This document shows, one piece after another, positions 14,760 to 37,755 of a DNA stretch of 64,000 nucleotides. Position 1 is the first letter of the stretch. Each line of letters starts with the position of its first letter. Source of the stretch: Verrucomicrobium sp. Its GTDB lineage: Bacteria; Verrucomicrobiota; Verrucomicrobiia; Methylacidiphilales; UBA1321. The notes beneath the pieces were generated by a model. It saw nothing but the letters and a program-made list of their open reading frames with translations, was not told the origin of the DNA and did no database searches. The stretch covers positions 62,001 to 126,000 of the forward strand of contig JAFIGT010000019.1 in the NCBI GenBank assembly GCA_017849585.1, read 5' to 3'. Position numbers and translations under genes: made by a program.

Positions 14760-14834
14760 GCGCGGTTAGCTTAGTGGTAGAGCGTCCGCTTCACACGCGG
14801 AAGGTCACAGGTTCGAACCCTGTACCGCGCACCA
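14760..14834 (+). tRNA. tRNA-Val (anticodon CAC)
   Basis: The cloverleaf is complete. The acceptor stem GCGCGGT pairs with ACCGCGC, the D arm contains AGTGGTAGA, and the anticodon stem TCCGC/GCGGA holds loop TTCACAC with anticodon CAC. The T arm is ACAGG-TTCGAAC-CCTGT, and the 3' CCA is encoded. Its 3' end is the integration site of the island to the right: the last bases and the following TTTT recur at 37739-37755. Confidence 0.95.
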
Positions 14835-14838
14835 TTTT
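14822..14838. repeat. Left attachment site (attL) at the tRNA-Val 3' end
   Basis: GTACCGCGCACCATTTT, covering the end of the T stem, the acceptor 3' strand, CCA and four T, recurs exactly at 37739-37755. Flanking bases differ on both sides, giving a perfect 17-bp repeat. This is the usual position of tyrosine-recombinase crossover sites. Confidence 0.8.
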
Positions 14839-14934
14839 GGTCGATTGACCAGTCGCGACAAGACCGCCTTCTTCGCGTCTAACCCGCTTATTTTCTGAGA
14901 GATCAGCAAAAGTTTTTTTCCGCCATTATTGCGG

Positions 14935-15402
14935 CGGATATAACTTGGAGCTCCGCATTCGGCGAAGAAGTCCAAGCACAGGACGTGGTTGGCTCCTTCG
15001 GCTCGCGTGGGGATCACGCGAGTCGACTTTCCTCGGCGGCGTTGTTTCCTGATCGAGCGTTTCGGTCGCAGGTCGCAGTCCCGACGAGGCCGCTGGATCA
15101 GCTTCTTGCCCACCCTCCAGCCTTCCTCTCGCAGGAACCGCGTCAGCTTGCGGTAGCTCCCCCAGGCAATCGTGCTGGCGTAATAACGCCACCATCCTCC
15201 GGAGTAGCTTGTCCATTCAATCAGACTATGAGCACCCGGATGTGCAACAGGTGGCTGGCTACGATCTTCTTGAGCTCCGCGTTATCACACGTCCCCTCCC
15301 GGTAGCTCCGCGCGCCGCGCAACTCCATCCCGCTGTCCAGTCACTGTCGGCTTGCCTCAATATCCGAATGATCTCCTCGGCGTTGTGTCGCTTCTGCTTC
15401 AT
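14935..15402 (-). pseudogene. Remnant of an IS3-family transposase (orfA and orfB fragments)
   Basis: The minus strand begins at 15402 with MKQKRHNAEEIIRILRQAD, a typical IS3 OrfA start (helix-turn-helix). The OrfA end (NAELKKIVA) appears in another frame. OrfB fragments follow in yet another: LTRFLREEGWRVGKKLIQR, then KQRRRGKSTRVIPTRAEGANHVLCLDFF, where the Asp of LDF would be the first DDE residue. Everything after it is missing. Frame changes, stops and the lost catalytic core make it non-functional. The rest of 14839-15630 shows no gene. Confidence 0.7.
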
Positions 15403-15630
15403 GATTGGATTCTTCCTGCCTTACCAAATTAATCCTCTCACTCATTCTGGACAGTTTATGGGGCACAATCAAAACCATGTGACATGGAAGCCTCCCATCC
15501 GCCGTATACCCTTTCGTTCGCAGGAGACAAAAGTCAATAAATCAGGACTGCACTGATGGCATCTTCAATTTCCCCTGAAAGACGAGATAATCGATAACAG
15601 TTCCATAGTGAATTAATGAGCCCGAGGTAT

Positions 15631-16341
15631 TCATCTGGGCATCTGAGAAATCATAGAGTTGAGGAGAATGCGACTAGCCAATTCATGCGCCCGCCGGTTA
15701 GGGTGATTCAATCCATTGATGAGCCATAGATCGGTATCAAACCCATCCTCGGCCAATCTTTCCCACTCTCGATGGATATCCGCTAACCCCGATTTTTCCT
15801 TCTCTGCGATGTGTCGAATAGCTTCCGCATAGCAGCCCAGCACTCCGTCAGTCTGAGTGCGAATAATCTTCTCTGCCATTAGGTCATGTTCAGGATGAAT
15901 CCGCATACTTCGACGCTTTGCCATGAGCGGCGGAGTGAGTAGCACCACTGCCGCCGAGGTTTTAGCCCGTACTTGCCTGATGATTTGATTCAAGGCGGCA
16001 CTAAAACCTTGCAAGCCCTCCACCCCACCCAACGAGTCGTTTAATCCGAAGGCAATTAAAACCAAATCCGGATCATGACGTAGAACGTCTCGCTCCAGTC
16101 GTTCGACAGCCTGGACCGCCGTTCCTCCTGAAACCCCTGCATTGATCGTACTGAATGTTGTCGAGGGAAAGAATATTTCCAACTCCTCCTGAAATAATTT
16201 GTGGTAAACGCCTCCACTATCGAGCAAGCGATGCTCCATCACGCCTTGAGTGACACTATCGCCGAAGGCTACAATCACAATCGGCTTTTGAGACACATCT
16301 TTGGCCTTCTCCCGGATTCTATGAAAAAAGCGGCTCATCAT
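15631..16341 (-). CDS. SGNH/GDSL-family hydrolase, probable carbohydrate esterase
   Basis: The 236-residue protein has SGNH blocks in order: GDSV with nucleophile S29, NAGVSGGT (N67, G69), GLND (N101) and NHPNRRAH with H213. The Asp normally three residues before the catalytic His is Gly here (ING-LNHP), a variation seen in some members. There is no signal peptide, so it acts in the cytoplasm. As the last gene of the leftward sugar operon it is likely to remove acetyl or similar esters from imported oligosaccharides. It starts 21 bases after the isomerase gene. Confidence 0.78.
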   Translation of the reverse strand: MMSRFFHRIREKAKDVSQKPIVIVAFGDSVTQGVMEHRLLDSGGVYHKLFQEELEIFFPSTTFSTINAGVSGGTAVQAVERLERDVLRHDPDLVLIAFGLNDSLGGVEGLQGFSAALNQIIRQVRAKTSAAVVLLTPPLMAKRRSMRIHPEHDLMAEKIIRTQTDGVLGCYAEAIRHIAEKEKSGLADIHREWERLAEDGFDTDLWLINGLNHPNRRAHELASRILLNSMISQMPR

Positions 16342-16362
16342 ATAAAAGTCTCAATGCCTGGT

Positions 16363-17352
16363 TCAACGCTCACTAAATAAAAGTTCCCGCATCCAGCGAG
16401 TAGAGCGAGTGGCATCACCCGCCGCGATCAGCTCTCTCATTTCATTACACCGTTTGGGTGTAAGCAATTTCTCCACCCCTTGAAGAAAGGCCACACTCTC
16501 CCTAACGGCAGCCACGCCATCCTCTCGATAAGGATATTGATCCATCGAGTACCATCCCGCATAACCACTTTCCTTGAGCCAGAAGAGCAGTTCGAAATAC
16601 TCCACGACGTGCAATGAGCCAACAATCATATCATCATCCCACGTTCGATAATTATCGTTGAAATGCATGTGAAAAAGACGGTCACCATAATGTTGTAAAA
16701 TCATCGCCGACTCGGCCGCATTCTCGCCAGCCATCAACGCGTGGCCCACGTCGATGCAAACACCCACATTCGACAATTCTGTTTCATGAGCCATCAAGAG
16801 AGTATCCGCAGCTCTTGCCTGGAACGAATGCGTGCGCGGCTCCTTGGGTTTATATTCAAGAGCAAATTTAAGATTCGGGAACTCGGCAGCGACAGCACGA
16901 ATTCCTTCCATCTGCGCACGACGCTGACCTCGATAATCAGCAGTTAATGGGTAGTCGTAACCATCCTGCCCCAGCCAGAGATTAATAAGAGGGCAACCGA
17001 TTTCAGATGCAATGCGGCTGACCGCGCGCGTTTCTTCCAACGCCTGTTGGCGAATCGCTGGATCTTTGGCACTGAAACTTCCATTTCCCCACCGCTTTTG
17101 CGAGAAAAGATCTGGAATAATGGACACACACGAAAGCTTGTTTTCTTCGAGGCAGTGTTTCATTTCGGCAACATTTTTCTCCGTAATGTCCCAGGTGCCG
17201 ACCAGTTCGATTCCGGCAATGCCTGGAATGGCGGCCGCCTGGCGAATCATTTCTCGCTTCGGCAGGGTTTCCTTATAACCCGTGGGCAAAAAGCGATCAC
17301 AGGTGTTGCCGAGATTTCCAAGTATAACAGAGTAACGATTGGACTTATTCAT
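16363..17352 (-). CDS. Xylose-isomerase-like TIM-barrel sugar isomerase/epimerase
   Basis: From ATG 17352 (MNKSNRYSVILGN) the protein is 329 residues; a TTG five codons earlier is possible. The ATG overlaps the rhamnosidase stop by eight bases (ATGAATAA), a coupling that favours this start. The barrel shows the metal ligands of the family: Glu in FALEYKPKEPR, Asp and His in CIDVGHALMAGEN, His in LFHMHFNDN and a late Asp/Glu. EYKPKEP followed by DVGH and HMHFND resembles ketose/aldose isomerases such as the RhaI type L-rhamnose isomerases. That would suit a rhamnosidase operon, but the substrate cannot be fixed by eye. Confidence 0.72.
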   Translation of the reverse strand: MNKSNRYSVILGNLGNTCDRFLPTGYKETLPKREMIRQAAAIPGIAGIELVGTWDITEKNVAEMKHCLEENKLSCVSIIPDLFSQKRWGNGSFSAKDPAIRQQALEETRAVSRIASEIGCPLINLWLGQDGYDYPLTADYRGQRRAQMEGIRAVAAEFPNLKFALEYKPKEPRTHSFQARAADTLLMAHETELSNVGVCIDVGHALMAGENAAESAMILQHYGDRLFHMHFNDNYRTWDDDMIVGSLHVVEYFELLFWLKESGYAGWYSMDQYPYREDGVAAVRESVAFLQGVEKLLTPKRCNEMRELIAAGDATRSTRWMRELLFSER

Positions 17353-20116
17353 AGAGTGATTCCACAAAAACGGAAATTTCGCGTGGAGCCTGCACAGTGG
17401 TTTTTAATTTACCATCTGGGCCGCGGTGCCATTCCATTTTCAGCAGACCATGCGGCGTACATACCTCGGCACACGCGAACTCAAGCCACAAAGACTGCGG
17501 ACGCAGAACGACTTTACGCCAACCGGGCTCAACACATTCGATATGGAAGAAAAGTTGCGGCAGAAGATACACCGGCGAACTAGACCAGCCGTGGCAATGA
17601 CTGCGGGTTGGAAAGTCAGAATGCGGTTGATTGATCATTTCCCAGAATGTAGTCGCCCCGGCATCGAGCATGCTTCCCCATGACGCTTGCAACAGCGCCA
17701 GCGTTTCCGCGGCGCAATTTGACTTCCGTAAGGCTTCGAGCAGAAAGAAAAGCGCATTGGGGCTGCCAACCCGGGCCATTTTTTCAGGAGGGTGGAGACA
17801 GTTTTCCAATGCCTGCGCGCAATGACTTTCAGCCACCACATCGTACAGTAGTGCGAGAAAAGACGTATGCTGGGAAATACTGGGGCTTCGGCTACCATCA
17901 GGCAATATCGCGTCAGGGTAAGCTCCTGCCGAGATATCCCAGAGTTGATTGATCGCAATGATCAGTTGTTGTCTTTTTAAAACAAAAAAAGCGTGATCAT
18001 CGATCAAGCCAAGGGTTTGAGCAGCATGTGCAGCTCCATCAAGAGCTGCTGCGAGTAATATACTATTATGGAACACTGTCTCGCGATCCTGATCAATAGC
18101 CGTCCAATCAAAGAAATTCCAAGCAGGCGCGCTAAATAATCCGCAGCCCGTGCAGTAGCGCAAGGCAGTCTCCACATTGGTTTTCATCGCGGGATATAAC
18201 TCGCGAAGGAAACTCTCATTGCCAGAGAGCCAATAGGTTTCCCATACGGCAATTCCCCATAGAAAACTAAACGACGGAATGATCACATCCCATCCACTCG
18301 GACACTGGCTCGCCACAAGAGGCAGTTGTTTGAGTGAATGCGCCGCCACGCGCAGGGAATGCTCCGCTAGGTCCGAAGCTCCAAAAGTGTACTGGGAAAA
18401 TAGTGCTTCATTCTTGGCATCGCCAATCCAGAAAACCTGTTCGTAAGAGGGACAATCCGTAAATGTATCCTCCATACATAGAAGCAGAGTCCGCTGGCTT
18501 TTAATAAATATTCGATTGAGTCGCTCGTCGGAACAGTGGAATGATCCGCGCTGTTTCGGCTCGTAGGTCGATTCAATAACACCAAGCCGATGAACTTGCA
18601 CCGGTCCATTACGAAAAACTAATTGCACATAACGGAATCCCCGTCGCTGTCTGGAAAGAAACTTTTGCTTTCCACCGCCTGCTGTATAGCGGAATGAATT
18701 GCGATAGCTGATGCCATCGTACTGGTGCATATACTGAATGCGCTCCCCTTGGAGATACTCAAAAAAGTAAGCATCAATCACGGTTCCCGCCGCAGCCTCG
18801 ATCTCCATGGTAAAAAAACCGACCGTCATCTCACCGAGATCAAAAAGCCGTCTTATTCCACGCGCTGAGGATGTGGCCTCAGTAAGATCTCCTGTTTCGA
18901 CTCGATCTGTTCGCACAGAGAGATACGCGTCAGCAATAGAAAAATCATCTGGAGTGAGTGCGGAGAATCTCTCCATGTCCGGCTTTCCGGCTAACTGCAA
19001 CACTTGCCGCTGAAGTTCTTCCTTGTGACTGAGAAAAGTCCCTCCAAACGGTGGAACAAATGTTCCAGAGAATCCATGAGATGGACCTTCTCGATCCAGA
19101 AAACAATTGGTATCAATACCCGCCGTCCACAATGGCCCCGTGCTGGCCCAAGCCGTCAGACCATCGGGAAGTGGGCATTTCCATTCCACAGCACCTGTTG
19201 CTTCATAGTTAATAGACAGCTCCGTGCCATGATCGTATTCCGTGCAAATGCCGATAGTGAGCAAATGCGTCCCCGGAGAGAGAGACAAATCACAGCTTTG
19301 CAGGTCCTGATCGGTTTGAAAATCAATCCGCCGTCCATCTACAAAGCTACACGAGATAGGTCCCAAGAGGTGCAGCCGAATTTGTAGGTTTTGAGTGCAA
19401 TTCAGTTGACTTGCCAGTACGCCCGCCATGCCGTGCAGATTACTGCCCTTAGGAAATGGCGACAGATGCCAACGCAAAGGGATCGACCATCCCTGTCGAA
19501 GACTACATATCGTCTCAGTGCGGATTGGTGCAGAGATATTTTTTAACTGTCGACTCAGCAGGCCCGTAGTTCTTGGTTGTAGGGGCCGTTTCGCTTTTTG
19601 TGCTATACACGCCGGCTCCCATCCATCTTGCGATACACGCGCGTCAAAATGCTCTTCGAATCCGAGTTGGCAGGAAATGCGCGGCACACGTTGAGTCCAC
19701 TCGATGGCGCGTCGAACTCTCCAACTTTCATCTGTAATCAGCAGTGGCGACTCAGAACCATCGGACGAGAACACGGCCAATAGTCCGGGCTCTCCTCGCC
19801 TATACTGGAATGTATCGACACCAAAATGAACCACCATGATCGCAATGCGATTAGCTCCGATTTTAAGATGATCAGAAATAATCCTCTCGTCGTAAAAACC
19901 ATAGTCTGGATAGCCACGCGCCGGGCCATCCATGATCCACTCGCCATTAATGAAGAGGCGATAGCGTGAATCGGCAGTGATGGCTACAGCTACCGGATTA
20001 CCTCCGCACCAATACAGCTCACGTTCAAACTCGTACGTGACATTCGCCTCCTCAGGAGCATATCCATCCGCCCAAATCCACTGCCCATCGGGAAAGGGAA
20101 AATCCTTTTTGCTCAT
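17345..20116 (-). CDS. GH78-type alpha-L-rhamnosidase
   Basis: This 923-residue enzyme is built like family GH78. N-terminal beta-sandwich domains are seen at about 1-330 (WIWADG, DSRYRLFINGEWIMDGPARG), then another beta-domain, then an (alpha/alpha)6 barrel from about 530 and a C-terminal beta-domain. The candidate general acid is E559 in DCPSYEQVFWIGDA, and the candidate base is E826 in GATTFWEM, matching the two-Glu inverting arrangement known in GH78. No signal peptide is visible (MSKKDFPFPDG), so it probably works on imported oligosaccharides in the cytoplasm. It overlaps its neighbours on both sides (ATGA and ATGAATAA), marking one operon. Some GH78-like proteins have other activities, so rhamnose specificity is likely but not certain. 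Confidence 0.82.
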   Translation of the reverse strand: MSKKDFPFPDGQWIWADGYAPEEANVTYEFERELYWCGGNPVAVAITADSRYRLFINGEWIMDGPARGYPDYGFYDERIISDHLKIGANRIAIMVVHFGVDTFQYRRGEPGLLAVFSSDGSESPLLITDESWRVRRAIEWTQRVPRISCQLGFEEHFDARVSQDGWEPACIAQKAKRPLQPRTTGLLSRQLKNISAPIRTETICSLRQGWSIPLRWHLSPFPKGSNLHGMAGVLASQLNCTQNLQIRLHLLGPISCSFVDGRRIDFQTDQDLQSCDLSLSPGTHLLTIGICTEYDHGTELSINYEATGAVEWKCPLPDGLTAWASTGPLWTAGIDTNCFLDREGPSHGFSGTFVPPFGGTFLSHKEELQRQVLQLAGKPDMERFSALTPDDFSIADAYLSVRTDRVETGDLTEATSSARGIRRLFDLGEMTVGFFTMEIEAAAGTVIDAYFFEYLQGERIQYMHQYDGISYRNSFRYTAGGGKQKFLSRQRRGFRYVQLVFRNGPVQVHRLGVIESTYEPKQRGSFHCSDERLNRIFIKSQRTLLLCMEDTFTDCPSYEQVFWIGDAKNEALFSQYTFGASDLAEHSLRVAAHSLKQLPLVASQCPSGWDVIIPSFSFLWGIAVWETYWLSGNESFLRELYPAMKTNVETALRYCTGCGLFSAPAWNFFDWTAIDQDRETVFHNSILLAAALDGAAHAAQTLGLIDDHAFFVLKRQQLIIAINQLWDISAGAYPDAILPDGSRSPSISQHTSFLALLYDVVAESHCAQALENCLHPPEKMARVGSPNALFFLLEALRKSNCAAETLALLQASWGSMLDAGATTFWEMINQPHSDFPTRSHCHGWSSSPVYLLPQLFFHIECVEPGWRKVVLRPQSLWLEFACAEVCTPHGLLKMEWHRGPDGKLKTTVQAPREISVFVESLYE

Positions 20117-22146
20117 GTCGCTAAGTCAGAAATAATTTCCCCCGAGGACGAAGCCATGGAGAGGCTATTTCCCATGCGATCCTTCAGGCGATAAGCGAAA
20201 ATCTGACGACCTGCCTGATTCTTCCCAATCCACACAGAACAACTCCCATCGCTGTCAGACATCTCGATGCGCTCTTTACCATCCCATTGAGCTGAGAAAT
20301 CTTCCTGCCTGACACTGCTGGACTGAATTCCCATGGCGACCACAAAATGAAAATCGGGCGTTCTGGATGATTTCAGAGAGAGATGAAAACCGCGTTGCTG
20401 GGGTCGCGATCGCGTCATCACATAGACTTCCGTTTCAACAATGGTCGGCATTATTTTGTGCGAAGCGATCGGATTGAGGTTTTCAATAACCAGACGACCA
20501 GGGCCATTTTCCATGACGAAACGATTTGCGTTTACTGAGCGCGCCGCTCGATCGGTATGCAAACGCCATTCGTATTCGTGCGGTAAAGTGGAACGTATTG
20601 TATCGAAAATCACCAGAAAGCGGCCATCCACCAGAATTAAGTGCCGTCTCATTTCCTTGAGTTGCAACTCATCGTCATAGGCTGCAGTAAAGACAGCGCT
20701 CGCTGCAGCGACCTGCTGAGTGTGCCAGACATTCTCCATATGGATTTTGTCATATTCGCTATAAGGCTTGGCGGAGAAAGTGCTCCATGGAGTGCCTCCC
20801 TTGTGCTGGCCGATGCCGTCGACAAGAATAGAATTATGATCGGCGGTCTCCTTTTTCCCAGTGTAGCCCGTATCATTGGCCAGAAAGACGCCTTTTGCAA
20901 AAAGCAGGAAGGAGCCCGCATCGGGATGGGCATGGCCTAATTCTAAATGCCACTGCGGATAGTGCGGTAGCAATGTCGCGAGATGGTGTCCGGCGGGTGG
21001 TCCACTTTTGAAAGCAAGAGCAGTGGCTGTTGGAGCATTCCAACTGGAACGCCAGTGCAATACTTCGATATCATCGAAATAATGCGAGTTCGACAGCTCG
21101 GACTCTTTTGATGGCACCGCAGAGTTGACGTTATGCGCGATAAGTAACTGCAATGCGCCGTCAAGAGGATGTGTGATCTCTGGATCGGGCAGGCGTTGGA
21201 GAAAATCACTCCAGAACGTTTCCTTTTGCTCGCGAGCCAACATCATGAGCAGTGAGCGGAAAATATAGGTAGGGACAGTATGCCAAGGCTTATCGTACCC
21301 TGGCGTAAAACCAATTCCATCGGGTTCGGTTCTCGATCCCCAATCAGCAAAATCGAAGACAAATTTGGGGTCAGGCAGGACGTTGTGAGCAAGATAGTAC
21401 CCGGCACGTTTGAACATCGGGAAGGAGAAGAGATCTTCACCGGTTGTGCGTTTCAGAGCGGTCGCGTAGCAGATCGGAAACTGCATGGTGAAACACCAGT
21501 AGCCAACACCTTCGAAGAACCAGCCATCCTTCGCCAGAACATCAAAACTTTTCTCCAGAAAATCACGACTGAATTTTCCCCACGCACGCGCTTTCTCTAC
21601 ATTTTCATTCAGCGCCATGGCAGCAATTCCAAGTGCGCAAATGGGGATAATCATGTGATTCTGCTCATAGGAATAGACCGGAAACGCTTCGGGATTGGTC
21701 AAGTCGGCATAAGCTTGCTGCGCCTGAGCGTGGAGTGTCTGAAGCAGTGCCTCCTCGAACTCTGCATCGAAAACTCCACGTAAGAGATCGTCCATCAGTG
21801 AAAAGGAGAGCAGGAAGTGACCTACCATCAGATCGCGATTTTCGAAGGCGAATCGTGGGATCTTCATCGCAGGATGTGACTTTAGGATGGGAAGCCACTG
21901 TTGCAGCAATGCACGATAGGATTCGTCGCGCGTGATGCGCCAGGCCGCAGCAACCCAGGTTAGTGCAAGGGCCGTGTCGATGACGACTTGGTCGCTGCCC
22001 GATCCATCGGCTTGGAGAATGGTTTCAAACGGACGCGGATTTTCCAGCAGCTTCAACGCGCTCGGCGTGGGAAGTCGCAAAGACGCGGTGGCTTTGGCCG
22101 AAACAAGTTCCGATTCATTAATGAGAAGACGGGGATGAGAATGCAT
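20113..22146 (-). CDS. Heparinase II/III-like protein (probable polysaccharide lyase)
   Basis: Starting at ATG 22146, which shares one base with the preceding stop (TAATG), the protein is 677 residues. An in-frame extension to 22332 would read the end of the upstream gene and is unlikely. It has an alpha/alpha toroid N-terminal part and a beta-sandwich C-terminal part. The family signatures are YEQNHMIIP (N163, H164) and HLELGHAHPDAGSF (H405, H407, D409), followed by GVFLANDTGY. Relatives cleave uronate-containing chains by beta-elimination using Asn, His and Tyr. The start MHSHPRLLINESEL is typical of secreted members after signal removal, yet no signal peptide is encoded here, so the location is probably cytoplasmic. 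Confidence 0.8.
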   Translation of the reverse strand: MHSHPRLLINESELVSAKATASLRLPTPSALKLLENPRPFETILQADGSGSDQVVIDTALALTWVAAAWRITRDESYRALLQQWLPILKSHPAMKIPRFAFENRDLMVGHFLLSFSLMDDLLRGVFDAEFEEALLQTLHAQAQQAYADLTNPEAFPVYSYEQNHMIIPICALGIAAMALNENVEKARAWGKFSRDFLEKSFDVLAKDGWFFEGVGYWCFTMQFPICYATALKRTTGEDLFSFPMFKRAGYYLAHNVLPDPKFVFDFADWGSRTEPDGIGFTPGYDKPWHTVPTYIFRSLLMMLAREQKETFWSDFLQRLPDPEITHPLDGALQLLIAHNVNSAVPSKESELSNSHYFDDIEVLHWRSSWNAPTATALAFKSGPPAGHHLATLLPHYPQWHLELGHAHPDAGSFLLFAKGVFLANDTGYTGKKETADHNSILVDGIGQHKGGTPWSTFSAKPYSEYDKIHMENVWHTQQVAAASAVFTAAYDDELQLKEMRRHLILVDGRFLVIFDTIRSTLPHEYEWRLHTDRAARSVNANRFVMENGPGRLVIENLNPIASHKIMPTIVETEVYVMTRSRPQQRGFHLSLKSSRTPDFHFVVAMGIQSSSVRQEDFSAQWDGKERIEMSDSDGSCSVWIGKNQAGRQIFAYRLKDRMGNSLSMASSSGEIISDLAT

Positions 22147-25100
22147 TATTTTTTTGTTGGGGGTAAAAGATGTAACCATGGGAAACGGGCAGGCAATTTC
22201 CCTGAGCCGATTCCTTCCGCCGCCCCAATCCAGCATTTTCGGCCGCTGCCATCGTTGTCGTTGACGATGAAGTTCGCGGCGAGGATGGAATCCGCGGCAG
22301 GTTTCGGGCCGCTTCCGTAAAAATAGGACCATGGAACGAAGGTCTCATATACCGTGTCATTATCTTTGCGGACGATACACGCCTGAATTTCGGGCGGATC
22401 TTCTCGTTGCGGGTAAGTTTGGATCAGTCGGCGCTGCCCATTAGCATCCAGAGCCAAGCCAATCTCCCGATTTCCCGGCTGATAGCCTGCATCACCGCCT
22501 TTGGTCTGCGGATCATAGGCTAGCTGCATGCTGTCGTAGTTCCAGAAATCCTGACCGTTCGCAGCTACATGCTTATTATCACGCACGATATAGATGGCAT
22601 AGAGCCCCACCTCATTCCACGCATAGCCATAACGCACGCTAAGATCTTCCAGTCCTTGCCAGGGAATGGAAGGATCAGGCGGCGCAATATCATTACGCTG
22701 ATCGAGCGTGTTCGTGGCGATCCGGATTTTGGAGGGTGAAAGAATCCCATCGATGCGAATCGTTTCCGGTGGCAAGTAGGGAACAGGGACTAGTTTTTTG
22801 TTCAAAGCTCCCTTTACGACAGAGTCCGCTCCGGTGATTTGAACCGAGATCTGCAATGTGGACGAGGCAAATAATTTGTCTGATCCTAAGAGAGACACCT
22901 TATTTTCCCCAGGGCGAAGCTTAGTCTGAGTGGTCCAGCCTTCCACTTTGATCTCCGCCGGGACTTCTTCCATGAGAAGACTTTCTATAGTGAGATTGAG
23001 CGCATTGATTTTACTCGCCCCAATGTGGCTAATGATAAAGGGCTGTTCCGGGCGCCACTTGATCTTGGCCAGATGATTCTTCAGCGTGCCGGCCTGAGCG
23101 AGGCTGGTCACAAAAAAGGTAGGTCCGCGAGTCAATCGCACGGTGGAGTCGAGAGAGTGCTCGCGCCCATAGAGATCGATGATGGTAACTCCATCCGAAA
23201 AACGCTCTTTCGGGGAGACATCGTAGCGCGTCGTCCAGATCGCAGCGACCGCTTGCTTAGTGAGAGGATTTTCAAACCAATAACCATTCAACGCCGGACT
23301 AAGATTGAGTTTTTCGCCCGTACGAGCACCCTCCAACAAGGAGGAGACGGCGGCAAAGGCATTGACCGCCGGAGTGGGTCGCATCCCTTTATATGTTTGA
23401 AGAAAGAGGCTGTAGTCGTAGCCGCGTTCGTTGAGGCCGAGCTTGTATTGATAGCCGCGAAACCAGGCGAGTTTTCCAACACCGGGCACGGCCTTGAAAA
23501 GGACGAGAGTCTGTGCGCAAATAGCCGCGTAGTCTCTGGTGGATGGCGACAAGTAGAGATCGTTCATGGGATAGGCCCATCCCAGCTCTGTCGACCAGAG
23601 TGCCTTATCTCTCGTGTACTCCGCGGCGACTTTCACATTCTTTTCCAAGGCGCTAACAAGATATTGATCGGGCCACATCACGGAGCCGTCTGGACTGATG
23701 TAGCGCGTGCCTGAGTAGGGATGGGCGGAGTAGTAATCCACCTTACCCTGAGTGTCCCGCAGCATCTTTTGCGTGAATCCGAGAACGCGGGAGGCTTCGC
23801 CTGATCCACCGCCACCCAATACAGGAATGGTGGGATCAACTTCCTTCGTGACCTCGTAGCCTTTTTTGAGCAAAGCGGCCGCGGCTGCGGCTGCCTCGTC
23901 TTCGTTCACCAAGCTGGTGCGCCCAATAGTGATATCCGGCTCGTTATTGATCTCCACGGCTCGCGGTGCCACGGGTAACGCTGTGAGAGCCGCACGCACC
24001 CAATCGCCAAAGCGTTGCAGTGGTTCCGGCTGGTTGAGTAGCACCATATGTTTCACGCCCAACCAATTCGGCATATTAGGTTCAAAGGTCCAGATCACGC
24101 CGAGTCCGGCCTCTTTGCAGTCCAATCCTTCCTGAACATATTTATCAAAATCAAAGACACCCTGAGATTTTTCGGTCCACTGCCAATAAAAGAAGATTCG
24201 AAAAAAACGAGCACCGATTCGCTTGGCGGTGCGTGGATGGGTCATGGTGCACAGGCCATAAAGCGATTCTTTAAATGGAATGGAGTCCAGTTGAGGCGGC
24301 CGCACGACAGCGACCGTAGTCCGAAAATCCTCAGCCTCCTTTCCGAGCGAGAAAGTACAGTCGGCAAACATGGGGCCAGGCAGATCCAGCTTCACGGGGA
24401 CTTTGACTGTGGCCGATGCGGGAATTCCCACTTTCTGCGAGAAGCTCCATTTACGATCATCATCGGTAGTGATGTGCACAGCGAGCTCCGCAATTCGCTC
24501 TTGCCCGGTGCGATTGCGAATTACCGCCTCAACAGTTTTTTCTTCGCTAGGAAAAAAGACATTATCGAAAGCACTGGCAGATATAGAGAGGAGACAAGGA
24601 AATTCGGCCGATGGTTTCCGTGAAGTATAACCGAACCGTGAGACAATTAGTTTTCCTTTGGTAACCGTGGAGGGTGTGACCAATATGCCCACGTTTCGCA
24701 AGGGAAAATGAATCACGCCATCTCCTTTTCCCATGGTTCGCACAAAAGTCTTCCGATCCAGTGGCAAAAGAAGACGTTGAGCCGTGGTATCGACCAGCTT
24801 GAATTCGGCCGCAAATCGCTGTTCATCTGCGCCCTCAATAATGATCAGCCCAGTAGCGCCGACGGCACCTTGAAGATCAACCCCAATTGCCATCGCGGTA
24901 TCCGGCAGTGGCGCAGATCGCCACACCCCCGCCCAGCCGTTGCTCTGTGGGAAATCATAGTCCAATGCAATACCGCCCGATTTTTCGTCATCGGCTAGAT
25001 GCAGAACCTCATTAGAGCGACCGCGGGCATTGATTTCGGGTGTCCAGAATACAACTGACTCTTCAGGAAATAGCGCGAACTCCCCAGTTTTGGAATTGTC

Positions 25101-25217: not shown

Positions 25218-25235
25218 AATACGGAGACCAAAAAA

Positions 25236-26622: not shown

Positions 26623-26690
26623 GCGTGGGGCTTTTATAGCCAGGCGTGCAACTTGGATATTCTACCGAAACGCAGCAGCCGAAGCGAGAC

Positions 26691-27671: not shown

Positions 27672-27742
27672 GGATGTTATTTTTGTAATATTCGCTTTCC
27701 ATGATCATTATCTGTGATTCAGAGCCTTAAGCCAGAGAAACA

Positions 27743-27762
27743 GCACTCTCACATTAGAGTAG
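27743..27762. promoter_or_regulatory. Candidate LacI-type operator before the leftward sugar operon
   Basis: On the minus strand the site reads TACTCTAATGTGAGAGT. Sixteen of 17 bases match the site overlapping the regulator's own start at 28806-28825. ACTCT and AGAGT form its arms. It lies about 75-90 bases before the PEP-CTERM gene. Confidence 0.6.
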
Positions 27763-27775
27763 CCAACCAAAAAAA

Positions 27776-28804: not shown

Positions 28805-28805
28805 A

Positions 28806-28825
28806 TTACTCTAATGTGCGAGTAA
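28806..28825. promoter_or_regulatory. Candidate operator at the LacI start, with -35 box
   Basis: TTACTCTAATGTGCGAGTAA has perfect 6-bp arms (TTACTC/GAGTAA). It abuts the lacI ATG (28804). A perfect -35 box for lacI, TTGACA on the minus strand, lies at 28840-28835, so the site would cover the -10 region and block both lacI and, if close enough, the divergent operon. Confidence 0.6.
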
Positions 28826-28888
28826 CGACCTGTTTGTCAAAACCATTCGTCGGGCGCTTACTCTTGCACAGGCGAAAGCACTCCATTT

Positions 28889-29939: not shown

Positions 29940-30854
29940 ATGTTAAAATACACAGATCATCATATAGGCGACGCTTGGTTTTATATTGAGGAAAACATGG
30001 CTCATGCCTTTTACCTCATTTGCCCACATTCAACGCCACCTCATACACATTGGGATATCGGTCACGCGACAAGCCGTAATCTGATCGATTGGGAAATACA
30101 ACCTATCGCGTTGCAGCAAGGAGCTGGAGGATCTTGGGATGAATGCTTGGCCACCGGTTCTGTTTTTAGAATGCATGACAAGTACGCGATGGCGTTCACC
30201 AGCCATCTCAAGGCTGAAACGGGATTAGCATGGTCACACAACCTCTATGAATGGACGAAGGACCCCGTTTTTCCGATCACAAGCGTTGACGCTCGATTTT
30301 ACGAATTAAATGGCACCGGGGAACGAACCTTTCGACATTGGCGAGATCCGTTTGTACTGAATCACGATGGCAAATGGTATCAGTTCGTTTGCGCCTCCAA
30401 CCCCTTGGCTCCTCTCGGTAGCCGGGGCAGCGTAGGTGTTGCGTTCCTGAACGGCACTCAATGGGAGATTCAACCTCCACTGAATCTGACACCTTTCTGT
30501 CAGGAGATGGAATGCCCTCAGATCTATGTGTGTAGAAATAACTATTATTTAGTGTTCTCTACGTTTGAACGATTCATTGCGCCTCAACAGCATGAGAGAT
30601 TTGGAATGGGCAAGCTTGGCTCAGGCACATTTGTAATGATGGCGGACAATTTGTTGGGTCCCTATCATATTGCATCGGAGCCACGCATTCTGCCTCTTTC
30701 CCTCAAGAACCAGCCCTACGGCTGTCAATTAGTAAACTTCAAAGGACGCGATTATTGCCTCGGAACCATATGGGAAAGCGACACCTCATATATGAGTAAT
30801 CCCTATCCTGTAGAGTACTCAGCGTCGGGGATCCATATCAGCTCTACGCTTTGA
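29940..30854 (+). CDS. GH32/GH43-like five-bladed-propeller glycosidase
   Basis: The 304-residue protein has the acidic triad signature of GH32-like beta-fructosidases: a first-blade Asp (GDAW, D11), RDP (135-137, in HWRDPFV) and EC (E191, C192, in ECPQIYV). The strand WDIGHATSRNLIDWE matches the GH32 'WGHAxSxDLVHW' strand. The WMNDPNG motif of classical invertases is not seen. No signal peptide is present. It could act on fructosides or on arabino/xylo-type linkages as in GH43. It lies directly upstream of a fructokinase-like gene, which mildly favours a fructose product. It starts 67 bases after the oxidoreductase gene. Confidence 0.7.
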   Translation: MLKYTDHHIGDAWFYIEENMAHAFYLICPHSTPPHTHWDIGHATSRNLIDWEIQPIALQQGAGGSWDECLATGSVFRMHDKYAMAFTSHLKAETGLAWSHNLYEWTKDPVFPITSVDARFYELNGTGERTFRHWRDPFVLNHDGKWYQFVCASNPLAPLGSRGSVGVAFLNGTQWEIQPPLNLTPFCQEMECPQIYVCRNNYYLVFSTFERFIAPQQHERFGMGKLGSGTFVMMADNLLGPYHIASEPRILPLSLKNQPYGCQLVNFKGRDYCLGTIWESDTSYMSNPYPVEYSASGIHISSTL

Positions 30855-30907: not shown

Positions 30908-31771
30908 ATGAAAACAATTTTTTGTTTTGGCGAAGCTCTTTGGGATTGCCTACCTGAGGGGAATTTCCCGGGTGGCGCTCCCCTTAATGTCGCCTTTCAT
31001 CTGAATCAGCTTGGCGTGCGTGCCTTCCCCGTTACAGCAGTGGGACTTGACCCCCTCGGCCGTGAATTAGTCGACATAGTCCGGCGCTGGGGAGTGAGAA
31101 CAGATTTTATCGGCTGGCATCCGACCTTGCCCACTGGAACTGTCGCAGCGGAAATCAATGCACAGGGCGATGCCCGCTATACGATTCGAGAAGACGTGGC
31201 TTGGGACGATATTCCAGTTACAGCGCAATTACTCAGCGCGGTGGGCAGCGCGGACGCCGTGGTCTACGGCACGCTCGCCCAGCGTTCTGTGTCGAACCGG
31301 CTCCAACTCGAAAAGCTACAGCAGGCAAGCGTGAACACATTCACGGTATGCGACGTGAATTTGCGTCCACCCTATGACGATCACGAACGAGTCTGGAAGT
31401 TGGCGAGCCAAGCGGATCTGGTGAAACTCAATGACGGCGAACTCCGCACACTGCTCGACGACACTCGGGAACGGCGCAGCCTAGAAGCGCTCGCGCGGTT
31501 ATTCGCGACCGAGATCGGAGTCGATGCGGTCTGTGTAACGGCCGGCGCAAAAGGGGCTGGACTGCTCCACGCGCATGAATGGCATTGGTGCGATGCGAAA
31601 CCGATCACGACGCGTGACACAGTTGGAGCGGGCGATGCCTTTCTCGCTGGCCTTATCTCGCGACTACTTGATCCCCACACCGCACCGCGCGAGTGTCTGC
31701 AGCATGCCTGCCGATTGGGCGAATTTGTGGCGTCACGTCATGGTGCGACGCCGTTGCATGCTGAACGATGA
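30908..31771 (+). CDS. PfkB-family carbohydrate kinase (fructokinase-like)
   Basis: The 287-residue protein has both PfkB signatures. Near the N-terminus is FCFGEALWDCLPEGNFPGGAPLNVAFHLNQLG, with the Gly-Gly substrate motif. The C-terminal nucleotide/catalytic motif DTVGAGDAFLAGLI contains the base Asp. Other landmarks include TGTVAAEI and VCDVNLRPPYDD. Fructokinase and 2-keto-3-deoxygluconate kinase share this fold. The latter would fit a uronate pathway with the DapA-like aldolase next door; the former would fit the GH32-like gene. The specificity cannot be settled here. Confidence 0.85.
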   Translation: MKTIFCFGEALWDCLPEGNFPGGAPLNVAFHLNQLGVRAFPVTAVGLDPLGRELVDIVRRWGVRTDFIGWHPTLPTGTVAAEINAQGDARYTIREDVAWDDIPVTAQLLSAVGSADAVVYGTLAQRSVSNRLQLEKLQQASVNTFTVCDVNLRPPYDDHERVWKLASQADLVKLNDGELRTLLDDTRERRSLEALARLFATEIGVDAVCVTAGAKGAGLLHAHEWHWCDAKPITTRDTVGAGDAFLAGLISRLLDPHTAPRECLQHACRLGEFVASRHGATPLHAER

Positions 31772-32096: not shown

Positions 32097-33173
32097 ATGA
32101 AGCGATCCGATCTTCCACAAGCGATACTCGACCTGGTACGCCGGGGTACAGTTATCCCAGCCGCACCATTGGCATTAAATGCCGAGCGTGAATTTGATGA
32201 GCGCCGCCAGCGCGCCTTGATCCGTTACTATCTGGATGCAGGAGTTGGAGGCGTTGCGATTGGAATGCATTTTACGCAGTTTGAGATCAGGAATCCGGGC
32301 ATCGATTTGTTTGAACCCGTCCTGCGCATTTGCTCGGAAGAAATCGATCGGTATGTACAGAAAAGCGGCCGTCCCATTGTCAAGGTAGCAGGCATCAACG
32401 GACTGACCTCTTCTGCCATCCAGCAGGTCGAGCTAGCCCGCAAGCTGGGATACCACTTTAGCATCGTTTCCATGGCGGCATTCCGGGGAGCCATGGAGCA
32501 GGAGATGATTTACCATGTGAGCGAGCTCTCCAAGGTGATGCCTCTTTTCGGGTTTTACCTTTTGACGGGGGTCGGCGGCATCAAACTTCCCTATACCTTC
32601 TGGCGGGAGCTCGTCAAAATAGAGAATATCGTCGGAATTAAGATAGCGCCATTTGATCGCTATGGAACCATTGATGTCGCGAGAGCCCTTGCAGACTCGG
32701 GACGGGAAAACGATATTACTCTCTATACGGGAAATGACGACAGCATCGTCTATGACTTTATTACTCCGTATCGATTTTCATCTGCATCCTCGACTAAGAC
32801 GGTAAGGATTCGCGGCGGACTTTTGGGGCAGTGGGGCTGCTGGACTAAGCGAGCTGTTGAACTCCATGAACGGTTACTCAAGATTGTCGATCAAGGTGAA
32901 ACTGTCACCCCGGATCTCCTGACTCTATCGGCGCAAATCACGGATGCCAATGCGGCTATCTTTGACCCCGCTCATAATTATGCCGGCAGTATCCCTGGAG
33001 TGAACGAAATACTCCGTCGACAAGGCCTGCTGGAAGGTAATTGGACTTTGAAGCGCGACGAAGTTCTGTCCCCGGGACAGCGCGAGGAAATCGATAGAGT
33101 GTGCAAGGCCTATCCTCACCTGACGGACGATGATTTCGTCAGAGAAAACCTTAACCGCTGGTTGAACGACTAA
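32097..33173 (+). CDS. Dihydrodipicolinate-synthase-family (DapA-like) aldolase
   Basis: The 358-residue protein has the DapA/N-acetylneuraminate lyase barrel. The Schiff-base Lys lies in IVGIKIAPFD and the Tyr strand in FGFYLLTGVGG, where YNxPxRTG in classical enzymes is altered. An acidic start (RTVIPAAPLALNAEREFD) and GGVAIGM follow the family plan. At about 358 residues it is longer than typical DapA (about 290). Enzymes of this family split 2-keto-3-deoxy sugar acids as well as making dihydrodipicolinate. Given the cluster, a sugar-acid aldolase or dehydratase role is most likely. It precedes the SDR gene by 13 bases. Confidence 0.78.
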   Translation: MKRSDLPQAILDLVRRGTVIPAAPLALNAEREFDERRQRALIRYYLDAGVGGVAIGMHFTQFEIRNPGIDLFEPVLRICSEEIDRYVQKSGRPIVKVAGINGLTSSAIQQVELARKLGYHFSIVSMAAFRGAMEQEMIYHVSELSKVMPLFGFYLLTGVGGIKLPYTFWRELVKIENIVGIKIAPFDRYGTIDVARALADSGRENDITLYTGNDDSIVYDFITPYRFSSASSTKTVRIRGGLLGQWGCWTKRAVELHERLLKIVDQGETVTPDLLTLSAQITDANAAIFDPAHNYAGSIPGVNEILRRQGLLEGNWTLKRDEVLSPGQREEIDRVCKAYPHLTDDDFVRENLNRWLND

Positions 33174-33186: not shown

Positions 33187-34239
33187 ATGAAAAATATTCA
33201 GACAATTGAGAATACCGAACTTCCCGCGTCATTTCACGATGAGGCGCATTTGGAGGAGTTCATGTCCATTCCTACAAAGGGATTGGTCGACGATTTGGCC
33301 AAGATCGATGGCGATATCGCAGTTCTTGGCGTGGCAGGGAAAGTCGGTCCCACTCTTGCCATGATGGCGAAAAAAGCCGCCCCATCTAAGAAGGTGATTG
33401 GAGTAGCTCGCTTCTCTGATCCGGACGTCAAAAAGCGTTTGGAGCAAGCAGGCGTGGAAACGATTTCATGTAATCTGCTCGATAGAGATGCCGTGGCACG
33501 CTTGCCCAAGATCAAGAATGTAATTTATATGGCGGGCAAGAAGTTTGGAGCCAATGAGGAGGCTCCCTTTACATGGGCGATGAACGCCGTGGTGCCTGCC
33601 TATGTCGCGGAGCACTTCGCTGCTACGCGCTTCGTGGCTTTTTCGACGCTGTGCGTTTATCCTTTTTCTCCAGTAAATGGTCCAGGCGCTACGCCGGATG
33701 ACACGCCTCCAACACCATTGGGTGAGTATGCAAACTCTTGCGTGGCGAGGGAACGTGTATTCCAATTTTTCTCCGAAAAGACCAAGAGCCCCGGTCGACT
33801 TGCTCGGTTGAACTATGCGATCGATTGCCGCTATGGCGTCCTGATCGACATCGCTCTAAAGGTGCTACATGGCGAGTCGATCGATATTCGTACCGGCGTG
33901 GCCAACTGTATTTGGCAAGGGGACGCCATCGCGTTTATCCTGCGAAGCCTTCTGCACGGTTCCATTCCTGCCAAGGCAATTAATATCGGCACTCCTCAGA
34001 CGACCAACGTGCGCATGGCCGCCACTCGTTTCGGCGAAATTTTTGGAAAGACTCCAATCTTCTCGGGTACGGAACAACCTACGGCCTGGCATAATGATTG
34101 CACGGAAGCGAAAAATTTGTTCGGTAATCCAGCAATTGATCTGAAGACGATGATTCGCTGGAACGCCGATTGGCTCCTGCGGGACATGCCGCTGCATCAC
34201 AAGCCCACCCATTACGATGAGCGAGAAGGAAATTTCTAG
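33187..34239 (+). CDS. NAD-dependent epimerase/dehydratase-like (extended SDR) protein with altered catalytic Lys
   Basis: The 350-residue protein has an N-terminal extension (about 1-42), then a Rossmann fold with GVAGKVGPTLA (Gly-rich loop, about 48-57) and NVIYMAGKKFG. The SDR active site appears as STLCVYP and EYANSCVARE: Tyr181 is kept but the Lys four residues later, present in nearly all SDRs, is Cys185 (codon TGC). C-terminal strands resemble extended SDRs (AINIGTPQTTNVRMAA). It may use a different proton relay, or may bind NAD without ordinary catalysis. It is between the aldolase-like and MFS genes, so a sugar-acid dehydrogenase or epimerase role is likely. Confidence 0.7.
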   Translation: MKNIQTIENTELPASFHDEAHLEEFMSIPTKGLVDDLAKIDGDIAVLGVAGKVGPTLAMMAKKAAPSKKVIGVARFSDPDVKKRLEQAGVETISCNLLDRDAVARLPKIKNVIYMAGKKFGANEEAPFTWAMNAVVPAYVAEHFAATRFVAFSTLCVYPFSPVNGPGATPDDTPPTPLGEYANSCVARERVFQFFSEKTKSPGRLARLNYAIDCRYGVLIDIALKVLHGESIDIRTGVANCIWQGDAIAFILRSLLHGSIPAKAINIGTPQTTNVRMAATRFGEIFGKTPIFSGTEQPTAWHNDCTEAKNLFGNPAIDLKTMIRWNADWLLRDMPLHHKPTHYDEREGNF

Positions 34240-34376: not shown

Positions 34377-35672
34377 ATGAAAACAGAGCTGCCTGAAGGA
34401 AATACAACCAACGCCAGTAGCGCTCGGAATTGCAGGTGGCAAGTTCTCTTGGCCGGTACCGGGATTAATCTGGCGTTGGGGTTTCTCTATGCCTGGAGCG
34501 TCATTAGCAAGAAAATACCCGATGATTGGCACTGGTCCGAAGCCGATCGGGTATTGCCTTACTCGATAACGTGTCTGGGCATATCCCTGCCCATGGTCTT
34601 CACCGGGTGGTTCCAAGATAAATTTGGACCACGCATGGCAACGACCATTGGAGGAATATTGGCTGGTGGTGGCATAGTACTTGCCAGTCTGAGCCACTCG
34701 CTTATCGGCTATGTGTTGGGCTTTGGTGTATTATTCGGCGTTGGAACATCCTTCGCTTATTCAGCGGTGACGCCAACCGCTGTTAAGTGGTTCTCTCCCG
34801 CGCGGACCGGAGCTGTTATTGGCGTTGTGGTGGGCGGGTATGGACTCGCTACGCTTTATGCCGCTCCCTCTGCAGAGTTCCTGATAAATGCCTATGGACT
34901 ACCCGCGACGATGTTTTCGATCGGTGTCATGTTCCTTGTAGGAATTGTAGGACTTTCCCAGTTACTCGTACTGCCAAAGACTTCCTCGGATTCAATAAAA
35001 ACAGAGAATGCGAATTCACATAATAATTTTTCGCCAGGCGAGATATTAAAGACATGGCAGTTTTACGTGATTTGGTTTACGTATGCCTGCGGATCGGGGG
35101 CAGGCTTGATGATCATCTCGAAGCTCGCAAAAATCGTGGACCTGCAAGCGGGACTAAAACTCGGCTACGTATTGGTGGCATGCCTCGGGCTTGGCAATGG
35201 TGGTGGAAGAATTCTGACTGGCGCAATATCGGACAAAATCGGGAGAAAATCCACATTGCTTATCTGTTTGGCCTCCCAAGCTTTCATAATCTACCTTTTA
35301 TCAAAAAGCAATGGCTCCACTTACGGAGCCCTCCCTGTATTTATAACATTATCAACGCTTGTAGGCATAAACTATGGAGCGAATTTGTCTCTCTATCCAT
35401 CGATCACGAAAGACTTTTACGGATTAGAAAACTTTGGGGCTAATTTTGGCCTGATTCATAGCGCTTGGGGAATGGGAGGATTTATTTTATCTCTTTTGGC
35501 TGGGTACACATTTGATCAGACCCATTCGTTTCTATTTGCCTATAATTGTTCCGTTATGCTTTTGCTTTTAGCCTTTGCATTGATTGTGTTTATAAAGCCT
35601 CCTTTGAAAAAGCCCCCCTCAGGGGAACATAGAGTTAGTTCGAACAAATCACTTTTATTCAGAAATTTATGA
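34377..35672 (+). CDS. MFS transporter, OFA (oxalate/formate antiporter-like) family
   Basis: The 431-residue protein shows about 12 hydrophobic segments and OFA-type features. Its first helix LLAGTGINLALGFLYAWSVISKKI carries the YxxS(V) motif. Between helices 2 and 3 lies the MFS motif GWFQDKFGPR. GxLFGxGTS-like glycine runs and a cytoplasmic loop GRILTGAISDKIGRKSTLL repeat MFS motif A. OFA carriers move organic or sugar acids. It is the only transporter in the island and so probably the uptake route for the pathway's sugar acid or oligosaccharide. Its stop overlaps the next start (ATGA). Confidence 0.85.
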   Translation: MKTELPEGNTTNASSARNCRWQVLLAGTGINLALGFLYAWSVISKKIPDDWHWSEADRVLPYSITCLGISLPMVFTGWFQDKFGPRMATTIGGILAGGGIVLASLSHSLIGYVLGFGVLFGVGTSFAYSAVTPTAVKWFSPARTGAVIGVVVGGYGLATLYAAPSAEFLINAYGLPATMFSIGVMFLVGIVGLSQLLVLPKTSSDSIKTENANSHNNFSPGEILKTWQFYVIWFTYACGSGAGLMIISKLAKIVDLQAGLKLGYVLVACLGLGNGGGRILTGAISDKIGRKSTLLICLASQAFIIYLLSKSNGSTYGALPVFITLSTLVGINYGANLSLYPSITKDFYGLENFGANFGLIHSAWGMGGFILSLLAGYTFDQTHSFLFAYNCSVMLLLLAFALIVFIKPPLKKPPSGEHRVSSNKSLLFRNL

Positions 35673-36448
35673 AACACCCCATCTATTTTGGATCGATTGC
35701 ACTCGAGTCCAATCGCTGGAAGCCAGAATGCCAGCCGAGTATCTACTTTTCAGAATGGCTATCTCGGGTGAATCAAGCAGGATTTGATGGCATCGAATTG
35801 TGGCAACGTCATTACACACAAGGTTCGCGCGCTGAAAAAGAACGTCTGACCTCCGGGCCTAATCCACCGGCTATATTTAACTCATACGCAACTTTTGAGA
35901 ATACAGACGAATCGCGATCACAGCGAAATGAGATTGCCCAAGCCATTCTTGAGACACGAGCCCTGGCTGTAAAATTTAATCTGGGAACAGATGCTTTCCG
36001 GGAAGAAGAATATATTGCGCAGTTTCGTGAATGGAGTGAAACCCTTCCATCTGAGATGGCGCTCCTATATGAATGTCATCCTGGCGATATTGGAGATAAA
36101 CCCGATACAGCAAAGGCCATCCTAAAAAAAATCAATAATCCCAATATTGGAATTATTGTACATCCATTTTGCCTATCTCCTGATAATTTGCATGCATGGT
36201 TTGATTGCTTTCCGGATTTGATACGCCACTTGCACGTTCATCAGCGAGATGAAGGTGGCGTATTCAATCTTCTGGAATTCTCTGCAGAAGGAAATGAGGC
36301 GCGATGCAGAATTCTCCGCCAGAGAGGTTTTCGAGGTACTCTGACTGTAGAGTTCACAAAAGGGACTGCGTTAGTAAGAGAAAACGCTGATGAGATTTTC
36401 CGCAATGCGTGCTCAGATCTCCAATTTTTACGTAGCAATCTCTCTTGA
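35669..36448 (+). CDS. TIM-barrel sugar-phosphate isomerase/epimerase-like protein
   Basis: The 259-residue protein has the AP-endonuclease/xylose-isomerase-like barrel: GFDGIELWQRHY (first Glu), LYECHPGDIGDKP (second Glu), IGIIVHPFCL and HLHVHQRDEGG, then LTVEFTKG. The ligand set is His/Glu/Asp-rich as in that family, although Asp of the third strand is replaced by HP. It begins by ATGA overlap with the MFS gene. No signal peptide is present. The role is probably an isomerase or dehydratase of the pathway; its substrate is unknown. Confidence 0.68.
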   Translation: MKHPIYFGSIALESNRWKPECQPSIYFSEWLSRVNQAGFDGIELWQRHYTQGSRAEKERLTSGPNPPAIFNSYATFENTDESRSQRNEIAQAILETRALAVKFNLGTDAFREEEYIAQFREWSETLPSEMALLYECHPGDIGDKPDTAKAILKKINNPNIGIIVHPFCLSPDNLHAWFDCFPDLIRHLHVHQRDEGGVFNLLEFSAEGNEARCRILRQRGFRGTLTVEFTKGTALVRENADEIFRNACSDLQFLRSNLS

Positions 36449-36527
36449 ACTGAGAAATTTCGATCAGCCATTACTAAGAAAACGGAAAACGGCGAATCTG
36501 AATCATAAGGATAGGAAACTAATTTTG

Positions 36528-36553
36528 AGCTTTTACAATTGGCTGTAAAAGCT
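36528..36553. promoter_or_regulatory. Perfect palindrome, candidate operator of the second LacI gene
   Basis: AGCTTTTACA (36528-36537) and TGTAAAAGCT (36544-36553) are perfect 10-bp inverted arms around six bases. The site is 22 bases before the regulator's start, where an autoregulator would bind. It is unrelated to the site at 28806, so the two LacI proteins have different operators. Confidence 0.6.
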
Positions 36554-36575
36554 AGGTACCACAAACTGCCTTTGC

Positions 36576-37592
36576 ATGAATCAACGTTACATTGCAAAAA
36601 AGCTGGGCATCAGCCAAGTAGCCGTTTCTCTAGCTTTACGCAATGATCTATCGATATCTGTAGATTTGCGCAATCGAGTCAAGGCTATGGCCAGTAGCCT
36701 GGGGTATCAGCCAAATCCGTATGTAAGCGCACTCATGACGCAAATTCGAACGTCTCGCAAGCCTAGCGAGAAGGGAGCCTTGGCCTTGCTTGTCGATGTG
36801 CTTAAGTCACGGGAATGGGACGCACATGAGTCCTATCGAGTGTATTACAAGGGCGTCGCGCGCCGGAGCGTTGAGTTGGGATTCAATCTGGTACGATTCT
36901 TCCTCAACGAGCCAGGCATGGAAGCTAAAGACGTGGACAAAATTTTACACACACGTGGGATTCGGGGTCTGATTCTGGCGCCTCCCTATTTAGGCAATAA
37001 AAAGTTGGATATTCATTGGGAGCGTTATGCCTGTGTGGGTACCGGGTACGGCTGGGCGGAACAACAACTCGATCGCGTAGCTCATGATCATGACCAGAAC
37101 GTGGTCATTGCTTTTCAAAAGCTATCAGAATTAGGTTATCGCCGTATCGGAATGTGTGTTTCTCCGTTCTATGCCAACGGTCGCGGGACGCGCTGGCTGG
37201 ACGGATTTCTGGCGTGTCAGTACAGATTACCCCAAAAACAGCAGGTTCCGCTCTTTGTCGGCTCTGTGGAGGATCATTCTTTTTCAGCGTTTCGCCAGTG
37301 GTATCGGAAATGGAAGCCGGATGTGTTGGTGTCGACCTATGGACATGAAAAGCAGTGGTTGGATGAAATGGGTTTGCGCATTCCGAAAGACATCGGAATG
37401 GCGTATCTCATTCGTCCCTCAAAATCAAAATGCGCGGGAATTGACGATCGCTATGAACACATAGGCGCTACGACAGTCGAATTGGTAGCCTCTAAAATTA
37501 CATTCAACCAGTACGGGATACCCGCCATTCCCAAGATGATCCTTATCGAGGGGCGGTGGTTGAATGGTAAAAGTGTATTAAGCCAGCACTAA
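36576..37592 (+). CDS. LacI-family transcriptional regulator (second copy)
   Basis: The 338-residue protein starts MNQRYIAKKLGISQVAVSLALRNDLSISVDLRNRVKAMASSLGYQPNPYVSAL, a LacI helix-turn-helix and hinge. The sensor domain follows (IRGLILAPPYLG, ELGYRRIGMCVSPFYANGR, PDVLVSTYGHEKQWLDEMG, GATTVELVASKI). The arrangement parallels the first regulator (same C-terminal RWLNG-type end), but the sequences are clearly different. It closes the rightward operon after 127 bases and ends about 150 bases before attR. It may control a sub-part of the cluster or genes outside it. Confidence 0.88.
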   Translation: MNQRYIAKKLGISQVAVSLALRNDLSISVDLRNRVKAMASSLGYQPNPYVSALMTQIRTSRKPSEKGALALLVDVLKSREWDAHESYRVYYKGVARRSVELGFNLVRFFLNEPGMEAKDVDKILHTRGIRGLILAPPYLGNKKLDIHWERYACVGTGYGWAEQQLDRVAHDHDQNVVIAFQKLSELGYRRIGMCVSPFYANGRGTRWLDGFLACQYRLPQKQQVPLFVGSVEDHSFSAFRQWYRKWKPDVLVSTYGHEKQWLDEMGLRIPKDIGMAYLIRPSKSKCAGIDDRYEHIGATTVELVASKITFNQYGIPAIPKMILIEGRWLNGKSVLSQH

Positions 37593-37738
37593 CGTCCGCG
37601 ATTTTTCAGTAGTTTGTTATATTTAGCGTTAATTTTATCGGATGTATTCGGGGCGTAAGGACAGAGTGTATGACTCACCTATATTTCTGAATCATTCTTT
37701 GGAATTTAGCCTGTCAATTGGACTCTTCGCTGGTGTTG

Positions 37739-37755
37739 GTACCGCGCACCATTTT
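37739..37755. repeat. Right attachment site (attR)
   Basis: An exact copy of GTACCGCGCACCATTTT from the tRNA-Val 3' end stands 40 bases before the end of rnhC. Between 37593 and 37738 there is no gene. The copy contains no rest of a tRNA, as expected for a displaced end after insertion. Confidence 0.8.

Follow-up and report, generated by a model that had tools for sequence, protein, structure and literature searches.

A 22.9-kb carbohydrate-use interval at tRNA-Val(CAC) in a UBA1321 genome is probably a decayed integrative element

Cis-mobilizable elements (CIMEs) are integrated elements that have lost their integration and transfer genes and kept both attachment sites, attL and attR (PMC5704250). 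Nutrient catabolism is a known cargo of tRNA-integrated islands: VPI-2 of Vibrio cholerae is a sialic-acid catabolism island at a tRNA-Ser gene (PMC3014918). The candidate family UBA1321 within Methylacidiphilales comprises heterotrophs of peat and plant remains, and most of its genomes come from these materials (PMC8706344). The locus described here lies in a 64,000-nucleotide stretch of DNA (the window) from a Verrucomicrobium sp. of this family, where the 3' end of a tRNA gene is duplicated at the far end of a 22.9-kb interval, as in tRNA-integrated islands. In the features testable here, the interval matches the CIME definition, as attL and attR are kept and the integrase is lost. As in CIMEs, both att cores remain, the integrase is down to its tail, no relaxase was found and the cargo is retained; unlike in CIMEs, no tandem partner element is seen, the host belongs to a Verrucomicrobiota lineage and mobilization of the island is putative. 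An autonomous integrative mobilizable or conjugative element carries its own integrase and relaxase, of which the integrase tail is all that was found here. With VPI-2 the island shares a nutrient-catabolism cargo in a tRNA-integrated setting, whereas the VPI-2 integrase works, that island excises, and cargo and host differ (PMC3014918). The GI-pheV islands of E. coli are likewise found at one tRNA site with a cargo differing by strain, short att repeats and modular content, but the integrase gene is the conserved part of GI-pheV and just its tail is present here (PMC11537424).

The sole tRNA detected by ARAGORN in the window is tRNA-Val(CAC) (14760-14834, plus strand), the putative integration target, whose 3' end serves as the attachment site on the left. 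The attL core, GTACCGCGCACCATTTT, consists of the final 13 bases of the tRNA followed by TTTT (14822-14838, plus strand). The original prediction of a 17-bp copy of the tRNA end was borne out by exact pattern matching, which placed the attR core at 37739-37755 in the same orientation. Beyond this pair, GTACCGCGCACCATTTT has no exact copy in the whole 4,792,218-base, 43-contig assembly; no third site was found in the window with up to three mismatches allowed, and none of 100 shuffles contained two matches. The next-longest exact match between the tRNA region and the rest of the window measures 12 bp. By our arithmetic, one fixed 17-mer would be met by chance with a probability of ~8 in a million in the window, both strands counted, and of ~6 in ten thousand in the whole genome. 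A search for direct repeats near the att cores, as candidate integrase arm sites, found none.

The interval had further been described as A+T-rich, which holds relative to its surroundings. Its GC content of 0.506 is lower than that of the left (0.597) and right flank (0.543), and GC3 is lower as well, mostly 0.48-0.61 inside compared with 0.64-0.83 on the left and, for the most part, 0.58-0.75 on the right. Across 24 other pieces of the genome, sampled at ~20 kb each as a composition reference, GC averages 0.560 (sd 0.026, range 0.506-0.590). The GC of the island is therefore at the edge of the genome range and not beyond it, and GC3 sets the island apart more clearly than GC does.

Overlapping the tRNA end, minus-strand positions 14904-14803 encode the C-terminal end of an integrase. 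This tyrosine-recombinase remnant of the last ~34 codons (14803-14904) was detected by tblastn with a 434-residue phage-integrase-family protein from another genome of the same family (G004), and it spans the end of tRNA-Val(CAC) plus the next 70 bases in antisense. The encoded peptide, DLSENKRVRREEGGLVATGQSTKMVRGTGFEPVT, is identical to residues 396-429 of the G004 protein at 22 of 34 positions (E 7e-8), and the frame as read from the sequence continues for three codons to a stop inside the tRNA. Because the last eleven residues of the match are encoded by the tRNA and would be conserved anyway, the remaining 23 codons were tested by themselves: 11 are identical, with a BLOSUM62 score of 48 compared with 28 for the best of 200,000 shuffles, and a score of 48 is attained at only one of the 127,858 positions in the six frames of the window. 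No integrase tail was identified at the tRNA-Val flanks of five other genomes (G001, G005, G008, G009 and G023). Inside the interval, the last ~34 codons are all that is left, with no other significant integrase match. The genome's own 96%-complete assembly yielded no intact integrase of the same subfamily, the best matches being short stretches on contig C39, and a pattern scan of IMG/VR found no relatives of the integrase.

An IS3-family remnant abuts the integrase tail (14905-15471, minus strand) and was delimited by tblastn and by blastn against an IS3 copy at another place in this genome. OrfA is located at 15402-15230 and residues 66-142 of OrfB at 15155-14904, with DNA similarity reaching 15471. 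Since the remainder of OrfB and the remainder of the integrase are both missing, a deletion has fused the two. The claim that only an IS3 remnant remains near the tRNA was thus correct as to IS3, with OrfA and part of OrfB present, and overlooked the C-terminal tail of the integrase.

Intact integrases of this type are present in the same family. G004 harbors them at both tRNA-Val(GAC) and tRNA-Val(CAC). On its contig C108, the 434-residue integrase adjoins tRNA-Val(GAC), and GTTCGAACCCTGTACCGCGCACCATTTT, containing the complete 17-bp core of the window, is found 19.9 kb from this tRNA in the same orientation, with a TrwC-family relaxase within the span. The C108 element and the island share the tRNA-Val target end, the att core and an integrase type whose tail is read into the tRNA; they differ in that the C108 element has an intact integrase and the relaxase, shows no sugar cargo and sits in tRNA-Val(GAC). 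The att core here is also shorter, 17 bp compared with 28 bp, and we count this against an integrated element in our window. In its own right, C108:66669-86637 appears to be an intact 19.9-kb element, which besides integrase and relaxase encodes an RCC1-repeat protein and a PAPS-reductase-like protein. At tRNA-Val(CAC), an intact integrase is found on contig C49 of G004 and a broken one on contig C53 of G003, the latter with a MobA/VirD2-like relaxase ~3 kb further; neither has a far att copy on the stretches read. Integrases of the same type adjoin tRNA-Tyr, tRNA-Gln and tRNA-Ala in other genomes, and G007 retains integrase traces at tRNA-Val(GAC). Contig C5 of G007 also contains an orphan 25-bp tRNA-Val 3' end (3779-3803 of the extracted stretch); the 37 kb upstream of it on the contig hold no tRNA, and the fragment resembles a far att copy left by an element that was lost or rearranged. 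The tRNA-Val elements examined carry relaxases or little cargo, and no sugar genes. As no second case with sugar cargo was found, this single locus leaves unsupported the wider proposal that polysaccharide-use clusters move as tRNA-targeted islands across the phylum.

The cargo begins on the minus strand with a GDSL-type esterase (15631-16341; PF13472), a xylose/rhamnose-isomerase-like TIM-barrel enzyme (16363-17367; PF01261; PDB 3ktc, E 2e-58), an alpha-L-rhamnosidase-like hydrolase (17345-20116; PF17389, PF05592, PF17390) and a heparinase II/III-like polysaccharide lyase (20113-22332; PF07940, PF16332; PDB oligoalginate lyase, E 2e-10). The following 1023-residue protein (22146-25217, minus strand) has no Pfam or NCBIfam match; NEP and TE motifs are invariant in its alignment, from which we guess that it is perhaps a glycoside hydrolase of clan GH-A, its predicted structure being too poor for use (mean pLDDT 47). 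Two further proteins on this strand (25236-26042 and 26691-27671) have no Pfam match and are recognized by tblastn in G001, the first at 61% identity and the same cluster position, the second at 71%. A prepilin-like protein of DUF1559 type is located within the sugar cluster (25966-26622, minus strand; N_methyl PF07963, PF07596) and is kept in G001 (73%). Minus-strand cargo ends with a LacI-family regulator (27776-28804; PF00356). On the plus strand follow a Gfo/Idh/MocA oxidoreductase (28889-29872; PF01408), a GH32-like hydrolase (29940-30854; PF00251), a PfkB-family sugar kinase (30908-31771; PF00294), a DHDPS-like aldolase whose match is weak and just under the curated cut-off (32097-33173; PF00701, E 2e-4), an NAD-dependent epimerase/dehydratase (33187-34239; PF01370), an MFS transporter of the L-lactate family (34377-35672; NF049980, above its cut-off), a sugar isomerase/epimerase-like TIM barrel (35669-36448; PF01261) and a second LacI-family regulator (36576-37592; PF00356). 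Outside the island, the first right-flank gene is rnhC, encoding RNase HIII (37796-38806, minus strand; PF01351, PF11858). Protein-family searches detected neither a relaxase nor a conjugation family among the island proteins. As for the substrate, a plant polysaccharide with rhamnose and uronate would be a reasonable guess. To speak of a complete catabolic system is an overstatement, since neither an outer-membrane uptake system nor a clear sugar importer was found in the island and the sole transporter belongs to the L-lactate MFS family.

The core of this cargo is patchily distributed among relatives. In G001, the island genes at 17345-29872 occur in the same order with 61-74% protein identity. 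Their contig breaks off within the cluster, is cut inside a gene at either end and carries no tRNA. Among the 62 genomes of the order, including the genome studied (G000), the 1023-residue protein has a true orthologue (73%) in G001 only, is absent from G002 and is matched elsewhere by at most distant relatives of about 26-36%; a search of the genome contigs with this protein likewise returned G001 as the sole match. Nucleotide identity to G001 is 66-70% in the cargo core and 68-74% in the right flank. With cargo and flank about equally diverged, the cluster may be long resident in the genus; this weakens a recent arrival rather than an integrated island.

G002, the closest genome compared by PGI identity (98%), matches the window from 9398 to 14799 with gaps, and the match ends 40 bases into the tRNA. 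At this same PGI-tRNA locus, the broken tRNA is followed by metal-efflux genes, namely a metal P-type ATPase and, by our reading of the sequence, an ArsR-like regulator, thioredoxin-like and CcdA-like proteins and a permease. The content of the site therefore varies between close relatives, metal-efflux genes in one and sugar genes in the other. The island and 15 kb of its right flank were not found in G002, save for weaker paralogue-like matches, an absence that is not certain as the G002 assembly is 89% complete. Synteny with G002 on the left is limited to 9.4-14.8 kb of the window and is counted against integration. Truncation of tRNA-Val(CAC) just past the anticodon is observed in both G002 (C35:165721-165760, 40 bases) and G006 (C172:394-357, 38 bases), which belong to different genera of the same family; neither assembly yielded the 3' half. 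Over the stretches compared, window positions 1-9380 show no synteny with either G001 or G002, despite housekeeping genes (glnD-like, purD), and gene order in the genus seems fluid.

An empty site would join tRNA-Val directly to TTTTCCCCTCCC and rnhC. No relative with this arrangement was found: a DNA search for the right junction gave no match in any of the 61 further genomes of the order, and a tRNA scan located no tRNA near rnhC in 26 relatives. The missing empty site is counted against an integrated element; as gene order at rnhC is not conserved, this check has low power and says little for or against. The gene 3' of rnhC varies between genera and within the genus. In many relatives, rnhC and a relative of the gene at 39111-39707 adjoin each other. 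G001, where a phosphoglucomutase-like gene adjoins rnhC, was ruled out as an empty-site reference, that gene being on another contig in G000 and rnhC not being found in G002.

We consider the 22.9-kb span to be a decayed, CIME-like integrative element that is no longer self-mobile, with a probability of about 0.72. The local part of the original prediction, an integrated island targeted to the tRNA, is well supported by the integrase remnant at the tRNA and by the intact relatives in the same family. Also in favor of the decayed element are the exact repeat with just two copies in the genome, the broken integrase and nearby relaxase of G003, the other cargo of G002 at the PGI-tRNA locus, the patchy distribution of the cargo core and the lower GC and GC3 of the interval; a GC still inside the genome range and a cargo core about as diverged from G001 as the right flank count against it. 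A tyrosine recombinase would have inserted an integrative element into the 3' end of tRNA-Val(CAC), by which the tRNA stayed intact and 17 bp of its end were duplicated at the far border. The gene for this integrase would originally have adjoined the tRNA, its last codons antisense into it as in related elements, until insertion of an IS3 copy, later partly deleted, and then a deletion removed all but the last ~34 codons. What remains would be carbohydrate cargo that arrived with the element, held between two att cores that may or may not still be functional, and neither a recombinase nor a relaxase was detected.

Alternatively, the repeats and the integrase tail might stem from an older element of which most is deleted, and the sugar cluster would be native to the genus or a later arrival by rearrangement or IS3, not borne by the integrase. 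The colinearity of the core genes with G001 at flank-like divergence speaks for this alternative, as do paralogous isomerase-rhamnosidase pairs on other contigs of the genome studied and the position of the IS3 remnant at the cargo edge. We regard it as rather unlikely, because the cluster fills the att-to-att interval nearly completely, it was not found in G002, and the right repeat is intact. A right repeat that arose by chance or from a stray tRNA fragment, in an interval that was never an integrated element, would agree with the repeat being just 17 bp and with the lack of an empty site; it is highly improbable because the repeat is unique in the genome, an integrase remnant lies at the tRNA, and an intact element of the family has this att core as well. 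The decayed-element reading also has a variant in which the island is still mobile in trans and is excised by an incoming element of the same specificity. Excision would need a related integrase supplied from outside; the identical att cores and the intact integrases of the same type at tRNA-Val in G004 speak for the variant, but the failure to find an intact integrase of the subfamily in the island's own genome makes this variant improbable.

In the broadest version, which we offer only tentatively and hold to be doubtful, the 3' end that tRNA-Val(CAC) has in common with tRNA-Val(GAC) could be a hotspot of repeated integration in UBA1321, where the enzymes would be tyrosine recombinases of one subfamily, their tail being read from the tRNA. 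Mobilizable elements using this site could carry whole carbohydrate-use clusters between species, and the island described here would be a decayed case, still mobilizable in trans. Islands at tRNA genes with catabolic cargo and decayed integrases are already well known, and the general view is unchanged. For the little-studied UBA1321 family, what began as a guess based on a repeat can now be assigned a class of insertion enzyme, a target site and intact relatives. The locus illustrates concretely, in one instance, how such a genome may acquire a cluster for plant-sugar degradation, and it points to a site worth inspecting as further genomes are sequenced.
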